Part shown: positions 1,922-16,776 of the stretch, one piece after another
Position numbering within the stretch: position 1 is the stretch's first letter
How the letters are laid out: each line of letters starts with the position of its first letter
Origin: a virus
Reading direction: 5' to 3' (one strand)
Virus record (IMG/VR): IMGVR_UViG_3300013094_001997
Coordinates: 1-30,580 of that record
Length of the DNA stretch: 30,580 nucleotides
The notes under the pieces: model-generated
Seen by the model: only the letters and a program-made list of their open reading frames with translations
What the model was told of the DNA's origin: nothing
Databases searched by the model: none
Translations under genes and position numbers: made by a program

Positions 1922-1940
1922 AATGCATCTATAACAAGTT

Positions 1941-1962
1941 AGTGATAGAATTCCGTATCACT
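1941..1962. promoter_or_regulatory. 22 bp inverted repeat AGTGATA-N8-TATCACT
   Basis: Perfect 7 bp arms are separated by 8 nt (GAATTCCG). The size and symmetry suit a dimeric helix-turn-helix repressor. The GTGATA half-site recurs in other non-coding parts of the window: TTGTGATAC at 2042-2050 and at 10894-10902. Confidence 0.4.
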
Positions 1963-1978
1963 GTGAGGGTGGTTCTTG

Positions 1979-2009
1979 GGGAGCGTGAGTTTACCGCTCC
2001 CATTTTTTC
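1979..2009 (+). terminator. Rho-independent terminator after rusA
   Basis: GGGAGCG (1979-1985) pairs perfectly with CGCTCCC (1995-2001) around a 9 nt loop, and ATTTTTTC follows. It ends the RusA transcript. Confidence 0.8.
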
Positions 2010-2021
2010 AGGGTAATCCCT
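2010..2021. promoter_or_regulatory. Palindrome AGGGTAATCCCT
   Basis: AGGG and CCCT arms flank TAAT. This is the second member of the pair described at 1910-1921, placed just past the terminator T-tract. Confidence 0.3.
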
Positions 2022-3694: not shown

Positions 3695-5191
3695 ATGCTT
3701 GAATTGAGACCTCACCAGGCAGAAGTAATCAATGCGTTAAACGAAGGATTTAAAGAACATAGAAGACAAATACTTTGTGCAGTAACCGGATTCGGCAAGA
3801 CAGAATGTGCGATGGCAATCATGCAAGATGCTGTGGCACATGGTAAACGGGTAGCGATGGTATTGGATCGGATTGTTTTAGTAGATCAAACCAGTATCAG
3901 GTTATCTAAATACGAAATCCCTCACGGCGTATTACAGGCTACTCACTGGAGATACCGTCCAGAAGAGCCAATTCAAATCTGCTCCGTTCAGACTCTCGCC
4001 CGTCGTAAAGTTCCTTTAAAGGTTGATCTATTGATCGTGGACGAAGCCCATGTGATGTATAAGTCTACTGTGGACTTTATTAGGGAAAACCCTCATATGC
4101 AGGTCATTGGACTGACTGCTACTCCGTTCACAAAAGGTTTAGCGGATATCTATTCCAATGTGATTGGTGCTCAGCCAATGACTAACCTAGTGGAAGATGG
4201 CTGGGTAGTGCCAATGAAGGTTTATATCGCCAAAGAGATTGATATGGCGGGCGCCAAAAAGAATTCATTTGGTGAGTGGGATGCCAAAGAAGCTACCGAG
4301 CGTGGATTACAAATTGTTGGCGACGTGGTGGCAGAGTGGCAAAAGAAAACCATGGAGATCTACGGTGAGCCACGCAAGACGATCGTCTTCTGTGCTGGCG
4401 TAGAGCACGGCAGAGAATTGGTTAATCAATTCAAACAAGCAGGATTTAACTTTGTATCCATTTCGTATAAGGAAGATGATGATTTCAAACAACGCACTAT
4501 CGAAGAGTTTAAAAGACCCGATACCCATATCCACGGGCTTATCGCTACTGATATTCTTACTCGGGGCTTTGACGTTAGCGATGTTCACATTGGGATATCT
4601 GCTCGCCCTTTTAGTAAGTCATTCAGTAGTCACGTTCAGCAGATAGGACGGGTGCTACGCCCACACGAGGGTAAAGAGTTTGGAGTCTGGCTGGATCACT
4701 CGGGTAATTACCTACGCTTTCGCAAGGATTGGGATGATCTATACCACGATGGTGTAACAGAACTCAAGGCTGGTGGATCTGAGACTGTCAAGCGTGAGCC
4801 TACTGAGCGGGAAAAGAAGCAGGCAAAGTGTCCCGCTTGTGCCGCATTGTGGACTTCTAAAGATAATACTTGCTCCTCCTGTGGGCACGTCAGGCAGTCC
4901 ATGTCAGACATTATAAACATAGCGGGCACTTTAGAGGAACTAGAAGAAGCCAATCGGAAACTAAATATTTCCAATAAAGACTTTTACGCAGAGCTAATCT
5001 ATTTCGGGCGTGAAAAGGGATTTAAGGATGGATGGGCATTCTACAAATACAAAGAGAAGTTTGGGGTAAACCCTGATGGGTTACATGTAACACCTAAACC
5101 ACCATCACCGCAGACTTTAAGATGGATTAAGAGCAGAACCATAGCGTATTACAAGGCAAAAGAAGCACAACAACAAAGGATGGCAGCATGA
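3695..5191 (+). CDS. SF2 DEAH-box helicase with C-terminal zinc knuckle
   Basis: This 498-residue ATP-dependent helicase is of the ResIII/SF2 type and probably opens duplex DNA during phage replication or recombination. Visible motifs are the Q-like LRPHQ (4-8), Walker A TGFGKT (31-36), DEAH (116-119), motif III TAT (141-143), motif V ATDILTRGFD (284-293) and motif VI QQIGRVLR (315-322). A CPAC...CSSC zinc pair follows at 379-396. The C-terminal 100 residues are a charged helical extension ending in KAKEAQQQRMAA. It overlaps the next small gene by 4 nt. No methyltransferase or specificity subunit is near, so a restriction role is unlikely. Confidence 0.92.
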   Translation: MLELRPHQAEVINALNEGFKEHRRQILCAVTGFGKTECAMAIMQDAVAHGKRVAMVLDRIVLVDQTSIRLSKYEIPHGVLQATHWRYRPEEPIQICSVQTLARRKVPLKVDLLIVDEAHVMYKSTVDFIRENPHMQVIGLTATPFTKGLADIYSNVIGAQPMTNLVEDGWVVPMKVYIAKEIDMAGAKKNSFGEWDAKEATERGLQIVGDVVAEWQKKTMEIYGEPRKTIVFCAGVEHGRELVNQFKQAGFNFVSISYKEDDDFKQRTIEEFKRPDTHIHGLIATDILTRGFDVSDVHIGISARPFSKSFSSHVQQIGRVLRPHEGKEFGVWLDHSGNYLRFRKDWDDLYHDGVTELKAGGSETVKREPTEREKKQAKCPACAALWTSKDNTCSSCGHVRQSMSDIINIAGTLEELEEANRKLNISNKDFYAELIYFGREKGFKDGWAFYKYKEKFGVNPDGLHVTPKPPSPQTLRWIKSRTIAYYKAKEAQQQRMAA

Positions 5192-5355
5192 GAATGAAAA
5201 GAAATGAAGAGTTTGATATGACCCATCAAGAGGTCGCTGATGTAATGTCAGTTGCCCGTCAGACTGTAAACCATATAGAGAAGCGTGCTTTAGAAAAGTT
5301 CAAAGAAGAACTAAAGAAGCGTGGCATTGAATCGTTTGATATTTTGCCAGACTAA
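5188..5355 (+). CDS. Sigma-70 region 4-like HTH mini protein
   Basis: This is a 55-residue gene. Residues 11-43 read MTHQEVADVMSVARQTV followed by NHIEKRALEKFKEELK. That matches the region 4 signature of sigma factors (E-I-A-x-x-x-x-V-S-R-x-x-V-x-x-I-E-x-R-A-L-x-K-L), the part that binds the -35 element. Regions 1-3 are absent, so it cannot be a complete sigma factor. It might act as a transcription modulator, as small phage proteins that touch RNA polymerase do. The start makes a 4 nt ATGA overlap with the helicase stop. It lies between the helicase and the Toprim gene. Confidence 0.78.
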   Translation: MRMKRNEEFDMTHQEVADVMSVARQTVNHIEKRALEKFKEELKKRGIESFDILPD

Positions 5356-10389: not shown

Positions 10390-10641
10390 TCAGTTAGTCT
10401 CTAGCTCTTTTACTGCTAATTTCAGGGCAGTATCTATATGACTATCGTCTAGGTATGAATATAAATGCCCGCAAATAAAACTATTTAATCCAGCCTTGTA
10501 AGATAAATCCCAGCGTAGTCTTTTTTCTAAGTCTTTTACTTTTGGGTCTTTTGCTAAGATAGTCCGCATAGCTGGAATACTGCAAGCTAGTGGAGCAATA
10601 CCGTTAAGAATTGTTGCGTAGTGTTCTTGTGTCATCTTCAT
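10390..10641 (-). CDS. Small hypothetical phage protein, first gene of the leftward operon
   Basis: This 83-residue protein opens MKMTQEHYATILNGIAPLAC and contains VKDLEKRLRWDLSYKAG, then YLDDSHIDTALKLAVKELE. The pattern H-Y ... I-A-P-L ... K-D-x-x-K-R-L-R-W-D-L ... Y-L-x-D-x-H-I-D-T-A-L recurs, as I recall, in small phage early proteins of unknown function. It is the gene nearest to the FNR-like site and its candidate promoter. An internal ATG at 10635 is an alternative start. Confidence 0.75.
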   Translation of the reverse strand: MKMTQEHYATILNGIAPLACSIPAMRTILAKDPKVKDLEKRLRWDLSYKAGLNSFICGHLYSYLDDSHIDTALKLAVKELETN

Positions 10642-10681
10642 GTTATCTAGCCTTTATAAAGTTAATGGTTTGATTTACTAC

Positions 10682-10694
10682 GGAATCAGTATTA
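10682..10694 (-). promoter_or_regulatory. Candidate minus-strand promoter with TGTG-TAATAC -10
   Basis: On the minus strand TAATAC (10694-10689) with an upstream TG forms an extended -10, giving a start near 10682 and a leader of about 40 nt. The expected -35 is poor, as is usual for activator-dependent promoters. The FNR-like box is centred about 41 bp upstream. Confidence 0.45.
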
Positions 10695-10715
10695 CACAGG
10701 TTTTAGGGCAAAAAC

Positions 10716-10729
10716 TTGATCTAGGTCAA
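10716..10729. promoter_or_regulatory. FNR/ANR-type box TTGAT-CTAG-GTCAA
   Basis: TTGATCTAGGTCAA matches 9 of the 10 conserved bases of the FNR consensus TTGAT-N4-ATCAA. Its centre (10722.5) lies about 41 bp from the predicted start of the leftward operon, the class II activator distance. A host oxygen-responsive regulator of the FNR/ANR family is the likely binder if the site is real. Confidence 0.55.
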
Positions 10730-10769
10730 GAAAATGAAAAATAATTTCCCACAATATGAGAAAGTTTCT

Positions 10770-10804
10770 ATTGCGGGGGAAGATAAAAGCCCGCAATATT
10801 CCCC
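10770..10804. promoter_or_regulatory. Competing inverted repeats (possible attenuator or operator)
   Basis: ATTGCGGG (10770-10777) and CCCGCAAT (10790-10797) form a perfect 8 bp inverted repeat with a 12 nt loop. GGGGAA (about 10776-10781) can instead pair with TTCCCC (about 10799-10804). The two pairings exclude each other. No T-tract follows, so a plain terminator is unlikely. Confidence 0.35.
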
Positions 10805-10856
10805 GTCTTGGATAGTTTGTCATTTGCTCTACTAGGGAATGAGATAAGAGATAACA

Positions 10857-10872
10857 CTGTATAAGTAAACAG
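10857..10872. promoter_or_regulatory. LexA-type SOS box 1
   Basis: CTGTATAAGTAAACAG fits CTGT-N8-ACAG, the beta/gammaproteobacterial LexA operator. It is separated by only 2 bp from a second such box and lies 85 bp before the small terminase ATG. Confidence 0.6.
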
Positions 10873-10874
10873 TC

Positions 10875-10890
10875 CTGTGCATATATACAG
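10875..10890. promoter_or_regulatory. LexA-type SOS box 2
   Basis: CTGTGCATATATACAG again fits CTGT-N8-ACAG with an AT-rich centre. The two box centres are 18 bp apart, so bound dimers would be close and might cooperate. A possible promoter begins 3 bp downstream. Confidence 0.65.
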
Positions 10891-10893
10891 TAG

Positions 10894-10921
10894 TTGTGAT
10901 ACTATCCTTATATCGTTATAC
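10894..10921 (+). promoter_or_regulatory. Candidate sigma-70 promoter for packaging genes
   Basis: TTGTGA (10894-10899) and TTATAC (10916-10921) are spaced by 16 nt. This predicts a start near 10928 and a leader of about 30 nt before the small terminase. The tandem LexA-type boxes end 3 bp before the -35. Confidence 0.4.
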
Positions 10922-10957
10922 CAATGTTCCGATTATGTTCCTATTATTGGCTAGATT

Positions 10958-11692
10958 ATGAGATTGCAGAAACTAACGAAGAAACAGATCAAGGAAGCAT
11001 TAGATCAAACACCCATGTATGAATTGCTTAATGTAGAGAAAAGCAAGCTGACTACTAAGCAGATTAAGTTCTGTGAGGAATTAGCAAGGGGAGAAACAAA
11101 GGCTGGAGCATATAAAAAGGCATACAACAGTAAGGGAACATCGAAGACAATGGCAAACAATGGGCATAGATTGGCAAAGCGTGACGATATCCAAGCGATA
11201 ACAGAGGCTATAAAACAGGGGATTGAGTTTCAGAAGTTGTATACAGCTGGACAAATAAGGGCTCTAGTTGTTCAAAGACTAACGCAAGAGGCAATTAGTG
11301 AGGACTCAAACCCTTCTGTAAGGGTAAATGCTCTCAAAGCCCTAGGCACAATAGCGGGAGTAGATGCCTTCGTGCATAGATCAGAGACTAAAGTAATCAA
11401 GGACTCGGATAAGGCTAGAGACGAACTGATTGCCATGCTAAAGCAATCCATAGGAGACAATGCTAAGGTAATCAATGCTGATGATTCTGATGTTATGCAG
11501 TTGCTTGCCGAGATCAGCCCTACCCCTTCCGAGATTCCCGACACACAGATCAGCGACCCCCACCAGCCCGATTCTGAAACAGGAGTCCCACCATCTAAAT
11601 TACATAGTATTCCAGACAAGGGAAGTGAGTCTGAAAGTAGCTCTGAAACTAATTCTGAAGTAATCGAAAATAATCCTGAGGAAAATCAATGA
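10958..11692 (+). CDS. terS: Terminase small subunit
   Basis: This 244-residue protein is the DNA-recognition subunit of the packaging motor. The segment LTTKQIKFCEELARGETKAG (31-50), followed by AYKKAYN and later ANNGHRLAKRDDIQAITEAI, is the helix-turn-helix of the Terminase_2 family. A helical oligomerisation part follows (to about 150). The last 75 residues are a low-complexity Ser/Glu/Pro tail (ESESSSETNSEVIENNPEENQ in part), probably disordered and perhaps a contact for the large subunit. No good ribosome site precedes the ATG, so expression may be low. The large subunit is 970 nt downstream. Confidence 0.88.
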   Translation: MRLQKLTKKQIKEALDQTPMYELLNVEKSKLTTKQIKFCEELARGETKAGAYKKAYNSKGTSKTMANNGHRLAKRDDIQAITEAIKQGIEFQKLYTAGQIRALVVQRLTQEAISEDSNPSVRVNALKALGTIAGVDAFVHRSETKVIKDSDKARDELIAMLKQSIGDNAKVINADDSDVMQLLAEISPTPSEIPDTQISDPHQPDSETGVPPSKLHSIPDKGSESESSSETNSEVIENNPEENQ

Positions 11693-12375: not shown

Positions 12376-12443
12376 GAAAAGATGTCTTTTATCTGATTGG
12401 TACGATAGTGGTTGCTTACATTATCCTATTTGTCATCCTATGA
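12372..12443 (+). CDS. Tiny membrane peptide, 23 aa, GTG start
   Basis: The frame reads MRKDVFYLIGTIVVAYIILF, then VIL and a stop. Three charged residues precede a single hydrophobic helix of about 18 residues. The start GTG overlaps the previous stop as GTGA, and the stop overlaps the next start as ATGA. It exactly fills the 60 nt that would otherwise be the only gap before the LexA-like gene. This packing is the main evidence that it is a gene. Confidence 0.55.
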   Translation: MRKDVFYLIGTIVVAYIILFVIL

Positions 12444-12664
12444 CAGAAAAGCAACAATACATCTATTCGATTATTGACTCCTGGTGGAGACGGTATGGCT
12501 TTGCTCCGTCTATCCAGAACATTATGGATATTACGGGCGATAAGTCTAAAGGCAATATCCATCGAATCATTAACCGACTGGTTGAATTGGGACACTGTAA
12601 GAAACTACCCAACACGGCACGTTCTGTGCGACCCTCCTACATACGGATCAGAAAAGCAGAATGA
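12440..12664 (+). CDS. LexA-type winged-helix DNA-binding protein without protease domain
   Basis: These 74 residues open MTEKQQYIYSIIDSWWRRYG and continue FAPSIQNIMDITGDKSKGNI, then a helix and RSVRPSYIRI. This aligns along its length with the LexA N-terminal domain: (L/M)T-x-(R/K)-Q-Q, an I at the first helix, G-x-x-P at the turn, E-I/N-I before G, S-x-x-N in the recognition helix, L-x-x-L, G and R-S/G-I near the wing. The S24 peptidase half with the Ser-Lys dyad is absent, so RecA-driven self-cleavage is impossible. I use ATG 12440 since the upstream frame overlaps two other genes. It overlaps the large terminase by 4 nt. Confidence 0.78.
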   Translation: MTEKQQYIYSIIDSWWRRYGFAPSIQNIMDITGDKSKGNIHRIINRLVELGHCKKLPNTARSVRPSYIRIRKAE

Positions 12665-14154
12665 ACCTTAAAGAGATCGTAGAGAAGATGCCGTTAACGG
12701 AGCGGGAAGCTTTTTACGAGGCTGCCGAAGTGTACGTTAACTCAATGAAGCGGGAGAAGGCTCAAATAGACTTTATGAGCTTTGTTCACGAAATGTGGCC
12801 CGGATTCATCAACGGCGCCCACCATAAGCTGATGGCGAAGAAGTTCGAAGACATCGCTAACGGGAAGTTAAAGCGCCTGATTATCAACATGCCCCCACGC
12901 CATACGAAGTCTGAGTTCGGCTCCTATATGTTACCGGCATGGTTTTTGGGGCGGGACCCGAGCAAGAAGATTATCCAATGTTCTAATACAGCGGAGCTGG
13001 CGGTAGGCTTTGGACGTAAAGTACGTAACCTAGTAGGAAGCGAACAATATGCAAAGATTTTCCCTAACGTTAATTTGCGCTCTGATTCTAAAGCAGCAGG
13101 ACGCTGGAGCACTAATGCTAATGGTGAGTATTTTGCTATCGGTGTGGGCGGTACTGTTACTGGTAAAGGTGCTGACCTGCTTATTATCGACGACCCCCAT
13201 TCAGAGCAAGAAGCCGCTATCGCATCCACCAATCCCGAAGTCTACGACAAAGTCTACGAGTGGTACTCCTCAGGACCTCGCCAGCGTTTACAACCGGGAG
13301 GGGCGATTATTGTAATTATGACCCGTTGGAGTAAAAAGGATCTAACAGGTCGAATCCTAAAGTCGGCAGTAGAGAAGGACGGTGATGAGTGGGACATCAT
13401 CGAACTTCCGGCGATTCTCCCATCTGGTAAATCTTTGTGGCCCGAATTTTGGGACATCAAAGAACTAGAGGTATTGCGGGAGGAATTGCCTGTAAGTAAG
13501 TGGAATGCCCAGTACCAACAGGCACCGACCTCCGAAGAAGGAGCGCTGATTAAGCGGGAGTGGTGGAAGTCTTGGGAAGAAGATACTCCGCCTCGGTGTG
13601 AGTTTGTCATTCAGTCATGGGATACCGCCTTTACTAAGAATGAGCGTTCGGACTATTCAGCCTGCACGACATGGGGCGTCTTTTACCTCAACGAAGATGA
13701 AATGCAACCCAACGTCATTTTATTGGATGCCTTTAAAGCCCGTCTTGAGTTTCCTGAGCTAAAAGATAAAGCATTCAATATGTATAAAGAGTGGGAACCC
13801 GATGCGTTTATCGTGGAAGGAAAAGCTTCAGGAATGCCGCTAATCTTTGAATTACGCCGTATGGGGATTCCCGTATCAGAGTTTACACCTACTCGGGGCA
13901 ATGATAAGATCGCCAGATTGAATTCAATATCAGATTTATTTGCTTCAGGCAAGGTATGGGCACCACCAAGAAGATGGGCTGATGAGGTTATAGAAGAGAT
14001 GGCATCCTTTCCTAATTCAGACCACGATGACTTAGTGGACTCTAGTACACAGGCGTTAATACGATTTAGGCAGGGCGGGTTTCTCAGATTAGATACTGAT
14101 GAGCCTGATGAAATAAAGCAATTTAAAAGCAGACGTAACTCAGGTTACTACTAA
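12661..14154 (+). CDS. terL: Terminase large subunit
   Basis: This 497-residue packaging motor pumps DNA into the prohead and cuts it. The ATPase half shows Walker A MPPRHTKS (77-84), Walker B LLIIDDPH (173-180) and the coupling motif IVIMTRW (217-223). The RNase H-like nuclease half has D321 in QSWDTAF, E386 in FIVEGKAS and acidic residues in HDDLVDS (455-461). The length is normal for the family. It follows the LexA-like gene with a 4 nt ATGA overlap and precedes the portal by 9 nt. Very confident. Confidence 0.96.
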   Translation: MNLKEIVEKMPLTEREAFYEAAEVYVNSMKREKAQIDFMSFVHEMWPGFINGAHHKLMAKKFEDIANGKLKRLIINMPPRHTKSEFGSYMLPAWFLGRDPSKKIIQCSNTAELAVGFGRKVRNLVGSEQYAKIFPNVNLRSDSKAAGRWSTNANGEYFAIGVGGTVTGKGADLLIIDDPHSEQEAAIASTNPEVYDKVYEWYSSGPRQRLQPGGAIIVIMTRWSKKDLTGRILKSAVEKDGDEWDIIELPAILPSGKSLWPEFWDIKELEVLREELPVSKWNAQYQQAPTSEEGALIKREWWKSWEEDTPPRCEFVIQSWDTAFTKNERSDYSACTTWGVFYLNEDEMQPNVILLDAFKARLEFPELKDKAFNMYKEWEPDAFIVEGKASGMPLIFELRRMGIPVSEFTPTRGNDKIARLNSISDLFASGKVWAPPRRWADEVIEEMASFPNSDHDDLVDSSTQALIRFRQGGFLRLDTDEPDEIKQFKSRRNSGYY

Positions 14155-14163
14155 GGATAAACT

Positions 14164-16776
14164 ATGGCAATAGATAAAGCGCTGTATCAGGCACCAATTG
14201 GAATCGACGAAGCAGCAGAAAACGAAACCCCAATTGAGATTGAGATTGAGAATCCAGAGTCCGTAAAGATCGGGATTGATGGATTAGAAGTAATCTTGGA
14301 GCCTGAGGAGGAATCCGAAGACGACTTTAATGCCAACCTTGCTGAATATGTAAACGACGGTGAACTTGCCCAATTAGCGGGCGACCTCTTGGGCGACTTT
14401 GAAGCGGACGTTGCTTCCCGCCGTGACTGGATCCAAACCTATGTGGATGGTTTAGATTTACTCGGATTAAAGATCGAAGAGCGTGCAGAACCTTGGGAAG
14501 GTGCTTGCGGTGTTTACCATCCATTAATGTCTGAGGCTTTGGTTAAGTTCCAAGCCGAAACAATGATGTCTATCTTCCCAGCAGCAGGTCCAGTAAGAAC
14601 CGTGATTATCGGTAAAGAGACTCCAGAGAAAAAAGATTCTGCTAGACGTGTTGAAGAAGACATGAACTACCAGTTAACCGAGACGATGCCTGAATACCGC
14701 CCAGAGACTGAGCGTATGTTATGGGGCTTGGGTTTAGCTGGTAACGCATTTAAGAAAGTCTACTACGATCCAAGCTTAGGTCGTCAAGTAGCAATGTTTA
14801 TTCCTGCTGAAGATATGGTTGTGCCTTACGGTGCATCTGACCTAGCCTCTTCCCCACGGGTAACCCACGTGATGCGTAAGACCGAGAATGAACTGCGCAA
14901 ACTACAGGTTAGCGGATTCTACCGTGATATTGACCTGGGCGATCCTATCCAGTCTTTGGATGAAGTGGAAAAGAAAATTGCCGAGCGTTTAGGCTTTAGA
15001 GCAACTACAGATGACCGCTATAAGATTCTAGAGATGCACGTTGACCTAGATCTTCCGGGTTTTGAGGATGTGGATGAGAATGGTGAAGAGACAGGTATCG
15101 CTCTTCCTTATGTAGTAACCATCGAAAAGGGTACACAAAACATTTTAGCGATCCGTCGCAATTGGGAGCCAGATGACAAGAAACAACAAAAACGCCAGCA
15201 CTTCGTTCATTACGGTTATATTCCGGGCTTTGGTTTCTATTCTTTTGGCCTCATTCATCTTATCGGTGCTTATGCTAAGTCTGGTACTTCTATCATCCGG
15301 CAGTTGGTTGACGCTGGGACACTTTCAAACTTGCCAGGTGGCTTTAAGACCCGTGGGTTGCGAGTCAAAGGCGACGACACACCAATAGCCCCAGGTGAAT
15401 GGCGTGACGTGGACGTTCCTTCTGGAGCGATGCGTGACAACATTATGCCGTTGCCATACAAAGAGCCAAGCCAAGTATTGGCTGGACTTATGGATAAGAT
15501 TATTGAAGAAGGTCGCCGCTTTGCTAACACAGCGGATCTAAACCTTTCCGATATGTCTGCTAATGCCCCAGTAGGTACAACGCTTGCCATTTTAGAGCGC
15601 ACCTTAAAAGTAATGAGCGCAGTACAAGCCCGTATTCACTTTAGCTTAAAACAGGAGTTAAAACTCCTCAAACACATTATTGCTGAATACACTCCTGAGG
15701 AATATTCATATGAGCCAGATGAAGGTAGTCGGACAGCGAAAAAGTCTGATTATGACAATGTTGATGTCATCCCCGTTTCGGATCCCAATGCGTCTACGAT
15801 GGCGCAAAAGATTGTCCAATACCAAGCGGTATTACAGCTCGCTCAGGGATCGCCACAGCTCTTTAATATGCCGCTCCTCTATCGCCAGATGCTCGACGTA
15901 CTGGGGATTAAGAATGCGCAGAAACTCGTTCCGATGGAAGAAGACCAGAAGCCGACCGATCCCGTTACGGAGAATCAGAACGTCTTGATGGGTAAACCAG
16001 TCAAGGCTTTTGCTTACCAAAACCATCAAGCGCACATCCAAGTGCATATGTCAGCCATGCAAGATCCTAAGATTATGCAATTATTGCAAAATAATCCGAT
16101 GGCTCCGCAGTTACAAGCTGCAATGCAAGCGCATATTAACGAACATTTGGGCTTTGAGTACCGTGTTCAGATTGAAAAACAGCTTGGATTTAACTTGCCA
16201 CCTCAACACGATGAGTCTGGCGAAGAGATTCCAATGAATCCAGAAGTAGAATCCCGCTTAGCGCCGCTATTGGCACAGGCTTCACAGCAATTATTAGCTG
16301 GAAATCAAGCTCAAGTAGCCCAACAAAAGGCTCAACAGCAGGCACAAGACCCAATTGTGCAGATGCAACAGCAAGAATTGCAGATTAAGCAGCAAGAACA
16401 GCAACGTAAGGTCCAAAAAGACCAGATGGATATGCAAATTGAGCAACAACGCCTGCAAATTGAGCGTGAGCGCATCGCTGCTATGCAACAAACTGCTACA
16501 AAACAGCAGGGAATTGGCTTAATGGAGAAGGCTTTGGAGTTAAAAGCCCACCAACAAGCTGAAGGAAACCGATTGGGAGTGGATGTCCTAAGAGACGCTA
16601 TGGATATTTCCCATGATGTGCGTAAAACACACAAAGAAACAGCAGTAAAAACAGCCCATAAGACGATGGATATGCTGCACGAACAGCGTGGGCGAAAGAT
16701 GGATCACGAAGTAGATTTAATGAAGCACTTGACTCCTACGGAGACGCCAGTGGAGCAAACACCTAAAGGAGAATGA
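14164..16776 (+). CDS. Portal protein, large P22-like type
   Basis: This 870-residue protein is the dodecameric ring through which DNA enters the head. Its position directly after the large terminase supports the call, as do the segments WEGACGVYHPLMSEALVKFQ (about 119-138), WGLGLAGNAFKKVYYDP and MFIPAEDMVVPYGASDL, which are typical of large podovirus-like portals. An N-terminal acidic stretch (EIEIENPESVKIGIDGLEVILE in part) precedes the core. The C-terminal third is Gln-rich coiled coil (QQQELQIKQQEQQRKVQKD), fitting the barrel-like extension of P22-type portals. AAGGAT precedes the start. Confidence 0.9.
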   Translation: MAIDKALYQAPIGIDEAAENETPIEIEIENPESVKIGIDGLEVILEPEEESEDDFNANLAEYVNDGELAQLAGDLLGDFEADVASRRDWIQTYVDGLDLLGLKIEERAEPWEGACGVYHPLMSEALVKFQAETMMSIFPAAGPVRTVIIGKETPEKKDSARRVEEDMNYQLTETMPEYRPETERMLWGLGLAGNAFKKVYYDPSLGRQVAMFIPAEDMVVPYGASDLASSPRVTHVMRKTENELRKLQVSGFYRDIDLGDPIQSLDEVEKKIAERLGFRATTDDRYKILEMHVDLDLPGFEDVDENGEETGIALPYVVTIEKGTQNILAIRRNWEPDDKKQQKRQHFVHYGYIPGFGFYSFGLIHLIGAYAKSGTSIIRQLVDAGTLSNLPGGFKTRGLRVKGDDTPIAPGEWRDVDVPSGAMRDNIMPLPYKEPSQVLAGLMDKIIEEGRRFANTADLNLSDMSANAPVGTTLAILERTLKVMSAVQARIHFSLKQELKLLKHIIAEYTPEEYSYEPDEGSRTAKKSDYDNVDVIPVSDPNASTMAQKIVQYQAVLQLAQGSPQLFNMPLLYRQMLDVLGIKNAQKLVPMEEDQKPTDPVTENQNVLMGKPVKAFAYQNHQAHIQVHMSAMQDPKIMQLLQNNPMAPQLQAAMQAHINEHLGFEYRVQIEKQLGFNLPPQHDESGEEIPMNPEVESRLAPLLAQASQQLLAGNQAQVAQQKAQQQAQDPIVQMQQQELQIKQQEQQRKVQKDQMDMQIEQQRLQIERERIAAMQQTATKQQGIGLMEKALELKAHQQAEGNRLGVDVLRDAMDISHDVRKTHKETAVKTAHKTMDMLHEQRGRKMDHEVDLMKHLTPTETPVEQTPKGE

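Follow-up and report, generated by a model that had tools for sequence, protein, structure and literature searches.

LexA-type boxes at the predicted terminase promoter in a clade of tailed phages

The viral DNA analysed here (30,580 nucleotides, IMG/VR record IMGVR_UViG_3300013094_001997, hereafter the window) comes from a freshwater phage and carries two LexA-type boxes in front of its packaging genes. Judging from the sequence, these boxes are real, conserved and functional-looking, and they are probably operators for the host SOS repressor LexA, which would hold the packaging operon until the SOS response. What was observed for this model is the sites, their score, their promoter geometry, their conservation and the gene order; from these we infer LexA binding, repression, release upon SOS, the class of the host and the extent of the operon.

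The boxes and the terS promoter

The distal box 1, CTGTATAAGTAAACAG (10857–10872), and the proximal box 2, CTGTGCATATATACAG (10875–10890), neither assigned to a strand, are separated by 2 bp and lie within the divergent intergenic region 10642–10957. On the left, 215 bp separate the distal box from the leftward gene, the minus-strand genes on that side beginning at 10641, and the ATG of the terminase small subunit gene (terS) is 67 bp beyond the end of the proximal box. The sequence-only reading had described two tandem CTGT-N8-ACAG boxes, 2 bp apart, in a divergent control region, and this description is exact: they are the only two matches in the window, where 0.45 single matches are expected. 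Its estimate that such a pair would seldom arise by chance was borne out by 3,000 Markov-1 simulations of the window, which gave a mean of 0.41 single matches and no pair within 40 bp. Box 2, taken together with its flanks, has three mismatches to the 20-base E. coli consensus, and the expected number of such matches is 0.

The boxes were scored with a weight matrix made from 17 E. coli LexA boxes, of which the umuDC operator was checked against MG1655. Box 1 scored 19.3 and box 2 scored 22.1, inside the range of 13–27 obtained for the E. coli boxes themselves, and the third-ranked site of the window scored 13.4. By their palindrome, AT-rich core and score, the two boxes classify as LexA-type operators of the beta/gammaproteobacterial type, CTGT-N8-ACAG being the motif that LexA recognises in most Beta- and Gammaproteobacteria (PMC3323433; PMC6595937).

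Rightward of the boxes lie terS (10958–11692, plus strand; phrog_51 8.6e-9; PF03592 6.1e-5, below its curated cut-off), several small ORFs, a gene for a 74-aa winged-helix protein that resembles the DNA-binding domain of LexA and has no peptidase domain (12440–12664, plus strand; PF01726 1.5e-5; phrog_3502 2.4e-11), the terminase large subunit gene terL (12661–14154, plus strand; phrog_38 3.6e-112) and the portal gene (14164–16776, plus strand; phrog_1216 5.6e-26). The predicted terS promoter is an extended -10 (TG-A-TACTAT, 10897–10905, plus strand), from which the terS mRNA would begin at about 10911–10913. When relatives were aligned on the box, TGnTAnnAT was found in this column, a few bases downstream of the box, in most box-bearing sequences; no clear extended -10 was present at the usual distance in box-bearing L039 and L074, and the layout of L027 differs. 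A simple -35/-10 promoter scan of the window did not report 10897–10905, because there is no good -35, as expected for an extended -10 promoter.

The box overlaps or abuts the predicted promoter, and this position, typical of an operator, is kept across relatives. It had been proposed that the boxes control either the packaging genes or the opposite, leftward array. The short spacing between box and extended -10, alike in most relatives, agrees with the former, and control of the leftward array loses its footing, as a conserved box geometry is absent on that side. The operator geometry, as predicted from this promoter, belongs to the terS-winged helix-terL-portal genes and not to the leftward genes. 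In the host-LexA model, LexA dimers on box 2, and additionally on box 1, would occupy positions -35 to -20 of the extended -10 promoter and block RNA polymerase, so that terS, the LexA-like gene, terL, the portal gene and probably the remaining morphogenesis genes would be silent. RecA would be activated by host DNA damage, or by single-stranded DNA from phage replication, and RecA-stimulated self-cleavage of LexA would release the packaging operon.

Another conserved element, TTCC-N7-TTCC/TACC, precedes terS (10926–10941, plus strand) in relatives with the box and in several without it, mostly 10–30 nt 5' of the terS ATG, and is a candidate packaging or translation element. The LexA box of Alphaproteobacteria is GTTC-N7-GTTC, and this form is exact at 10926–10940 in the window and in a few relatives; it was rejected as probably a chance form, because other relatives hold the broader TTCC-N7-TTCC/TACC at that position. 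A conserved block, AAAAGCCCGC ... TGGATnGCTTnGAT ... CTAGTAGGGA (10790–10845, plus strand), was observed 5' of the boxes in many relatives and is missing from L003 and L009.

Conservation of the boxes among relatives

A TerL search of viral sequences gave 80 loci, and an IQ-TREE phylogeny was made of the 46 non-redundant TerL proteins for which the upstream sequence could be read. A box was counted as present at a matrix score of at least 17; a site at G006:6877 was left out of the counts, being inside a possible coding ORF. By this count, 22 of the 46 relatives have a box at the terS promoter. It was present in 21 of the 23 members of one TerL clade (support 100/99, some inner forks open) and in one of the 23 rows outside this clade. 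The absence of the boxes from close relatives that share the gene order had been named in advance as grounds for abandoning the idea; they are kept in these relatives, and they occupy the same place even where the TerS proteins are only 35–50% identical.

A further comparison is with L003, whose TerL is 100% and whose TerS is 89% identical to those of the window. In L003 the sequence 5' of the boxes is unrelated to that of the window, the interior of box 1 differs and the spacing between the boxes is 1 bp instead of 2 bp, and both CTGT/ACAG frames are intact. As the frames are intact amid changed surroundings, the simple reading is therefore that selection acts on CTGT/ACAG. Two good sites within 40 bp were found in the subclade of the window, in L017 and in L026; a single box was found in many other relatives, and the distal box is degraded in several members of the subclade (e.g. 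CTGTATGAATAACCAT). Judging by these comparisons, the proximal box is the conserved core and the second box is an addition.

The palindrome might have another role, either recognition by terminase (a cos or pac site) or binding of another regulator of a CTGT-N8-ACAG-like site. It adjoins terS, in the usual neighbourhood of packaging sites, and other conserved elements are close by. However, it has the AT-rich logo of LexA with TA/TA flanks, and CCAG half-sites are tolerated in it, as in the boxes of E. coli; one relative (L018/L020) carries an exact umuDC operator, TACTGTATATAAAAACAGTA, 20 letters identical to the operator before umuD of E. coli MG1655; and the packaging proteins of the box-less sister groups are homologous, yet do without such a site. 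We consider this explanation very improbable.

The nearest named phage isolates, by TerL, are 023Pt_psg01, HTVC027P and DSL-LC04 (56–57% identical), and a matrix scan of these regions found no good box near the packaging genes. It was observed that DSL-LC04 has an ORF annotated 'sigma-G factor' at a place similar to that of a 55-aa ORF of the window (5188–5355, plus strand), which matches sigma-70 region 4 (PF04545 4e-7) and is a possible phage sigma-like or HTH factor. In a relative that has no terS box, three CTGT-N8-ACAG motifs occur within about 100 bp (G013:C1:60830-60932), with matrix scores of only 9.9–10.8.

Host LexA and the phage LexA-like protein as readers of the boxes

The type of the boxes makes host LexA their likely reader and the best candidate. 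A betaproteobacterial host is hinted at by a Betaproteobacteria-1 RNA (RF02932; 2107–2227, plus strand; Rfam 90.7 bits, gathering 49.4), which lies in non-coding DNA with rusA on one side and the ParB/helicase genes on the other. The same RNA was found in G006, G008 and G010, each of which has the box, and in none of the records searched that lack it. This RNA family is phage-borne here, and blastn found no relatives of it in phage and plasmid collections. A search for the host via prophages in bacterial genome contigs returned only MAG contigs of mixed phyla and was unusable.

As second possible reader the sequence-only reading had named the phage LexA-like protein (product of 12440–12664). 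As a rival to host LexA, it would bind the boxes and autoregulate its own packaging operon independently of SOS. The gene for this protein is part of the same run, and the protein has the DNA-binding fold of LexA: the best PDB match of its AF2 model (pLDDT 89) is the E. coli LexA-DNA complex 3jso (TM 0.77). Moreover, small LexA relatives are able to bind palindromes without a peptidase domain, as does gp6 of the Bacillus phage GIL01, although that corresponding protein binds a different palindrome. The recognition helix speaks against such a role. E. coli LexA contacts DNA through Ser39, Asn41, Ala42, Glu44 and Glu45 (PMC3091678), whereas most members of the phage family have Ser/Gly, Gly, Asn, His and Arg at the aligned positions. 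Box-bearing L022 and box-less L030 and L035 share one and the same recognition helix, KGRGNVHRTMKKL. Because the CTGT-contacting residues are absent and the helix is unchanged in box-less relatives, the phage protein probably reads another sequence. The gene immediately precedes terL in nearly all relatives, and it was present in all 15 longer records scanned, regardless of the box. The phage protein was ruled out as first-choice reader on its recognition helix, and autoregulation through the boxes appears quite unlikely.

The C-terminal S24 autocleavage/dimerisation domain (PF00717) is absent from the 74-aa protein, and a tblastn search found no homologue of the protein in the phage collection. 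In GIL01, a member of the Tectiviridae, gp7 and a late promoter P3 with tandem LexA boxes have been described; P3 is activated by gp6, a truncated homologue of LexA, acting from another palindrome (PMC6182141). By analogy with gp6, the phage winged helix is perhaps a late activator acting at another site.

Relation to known systems, lifestyle and early sites

Host LexA governs some temperate phages via sites at antirepressor, co-repressor or lytic genes. Control of phage genes by host LexA is known, and what is new here is the placement on the terminase operon; a search of the open-access literature, which was not exhaustive, found no earlier description of LexA boxes at a terminase operon. 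The clade offers a LexA-type operator placed directly on terminase and portal genes in 21 of its 23 members, in phages for which integrase and repressor were undetected in the records searched.

GIL01 shares several features with these phages: tandem LexA boxes at the late promoter (in the window and its subclade, many other relatives having a single box), a small phage protein made of the LexA-like DNA-binding domain alone (PF01726, no S24 peptidase) and, as far as the records searched here show, the lack of a dedicated CI-like repressor. The phages analysed here differ in being tailed and unrelated to GIL01; their LexA motif is of the Gram-negative type, and the LexA-like gene is inside the presumably controlled late gene run, whereas it is expressed early in GIL01. 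As the layout is shared but the phages are unrelated and the LexA motif is another one, the clade may work like the GIL01 system and is not a member of it.

Three other cases show that phages repeatedly adopt host regulators. The Vibrio phage CTXphi has a site for host LexA in the rstR-rstA region (PMC3323433), again a CTGT-N8-ACAG sequence at a promoter of the phage, but CTXphi is filamentous, integrates and has its own repressor, RstR, and the site is not on a terminase operon. Temperate enterobacterial phages carry dinI-like genes with LexA boxes (PMC7556043); these genes have an E. coli-type LexA box upstream, as here, but are single accessory genes of temperate phages and not a packaging operon. 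In the CtrA-dependent 'lytic deferment' of Alphaproteobacteria phages (PMC9437464), sites for a host regulator in phage promoters are also a clade-wide signature and time lysis, with the difference that CtrA responds to the cell cycle and LexA to DNA damage.

If LexA binds the boxes, DNA damage (for instance by sunlight UV in lakes) or phage replication would gate virion assembly, and delayed lysis or a carrier state is predicted in freshwater phages. Against the host-LexA model, in the absence of lysogeny genes the benefit to a lytic phage of having its packaging genes held by the host is not obvious. Only tentatively do we extend this model to the whole clade, taken as tailed, non-integrating phages of freshwater Betaproteobacteria: LexA would hold the terminase operon until phage replication or damage sets off SOS, and the phage LexA-like winged helix would drive late transcription. 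Such a two-LexA switch would be convergent with that of GIL01 and would be, for DNA damage, the counterpart of lytic deferment by CtrA.

A search of 15 records, most of which may be incomplete, found no S24 peptidase repressor and no tyrosine integrase (PF00589), and neither serine recombinase (PF00239) nor ParA was found in nine records, among them G006, which has the box and is 61 kb long. A gene for a ParB-like protein is present. Proteins of this kind occur in lytic phages too. These data bear on the proposal that the boxes are LexA operators of a non-integrating lysogen or phage-plasmid, host LexA silencing a dormant extrachromosomal prophage as in GIL01. It is a sub-case of the host-LexA model, so that the confidences given to the two overlap. 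The ParB-like protein and the lack of a dedicated repressor in the 15 records are in its favour, as is a second good box just after rusA in box-bearing G008 and in L115-L117 (with a near-match in G006, matrix score 17.3), which recalls the early and late LexA control of GIL01. Set against it are the lack of ParA and of tyrosine and serine recombinases in the records searched, the occurrence of ParB-like proteins outside lysogens, and the early box itself, which is absent from L113, L114 and L118 and degenerate in the window. A dormant prophage of this kind seems rather unlikely.

The post-rusA site of the window (1922–1955, plus strand), which is a LexA box in some relatives, reads ATGCATCTATAACAAG before TGATAGAAT; being degenerate and below threshold, it was rejected as an early LexA box, and no clear box was found at an early gene in the window. 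LexA may control early genes in some members only, as far as the distribution of these sites indicates. It was also observed that, 3' of rusA (1940–2012, plus strand), an inverted repeat with a T run, GGGGAGCGTGAGTTTACCGCTCCCATTTTTTC, comes no more than about 60 bp after the extended -10 TGATAGAAT; this stretch might encode a short RNA, and in G008 a LexA box is located at its promoter.
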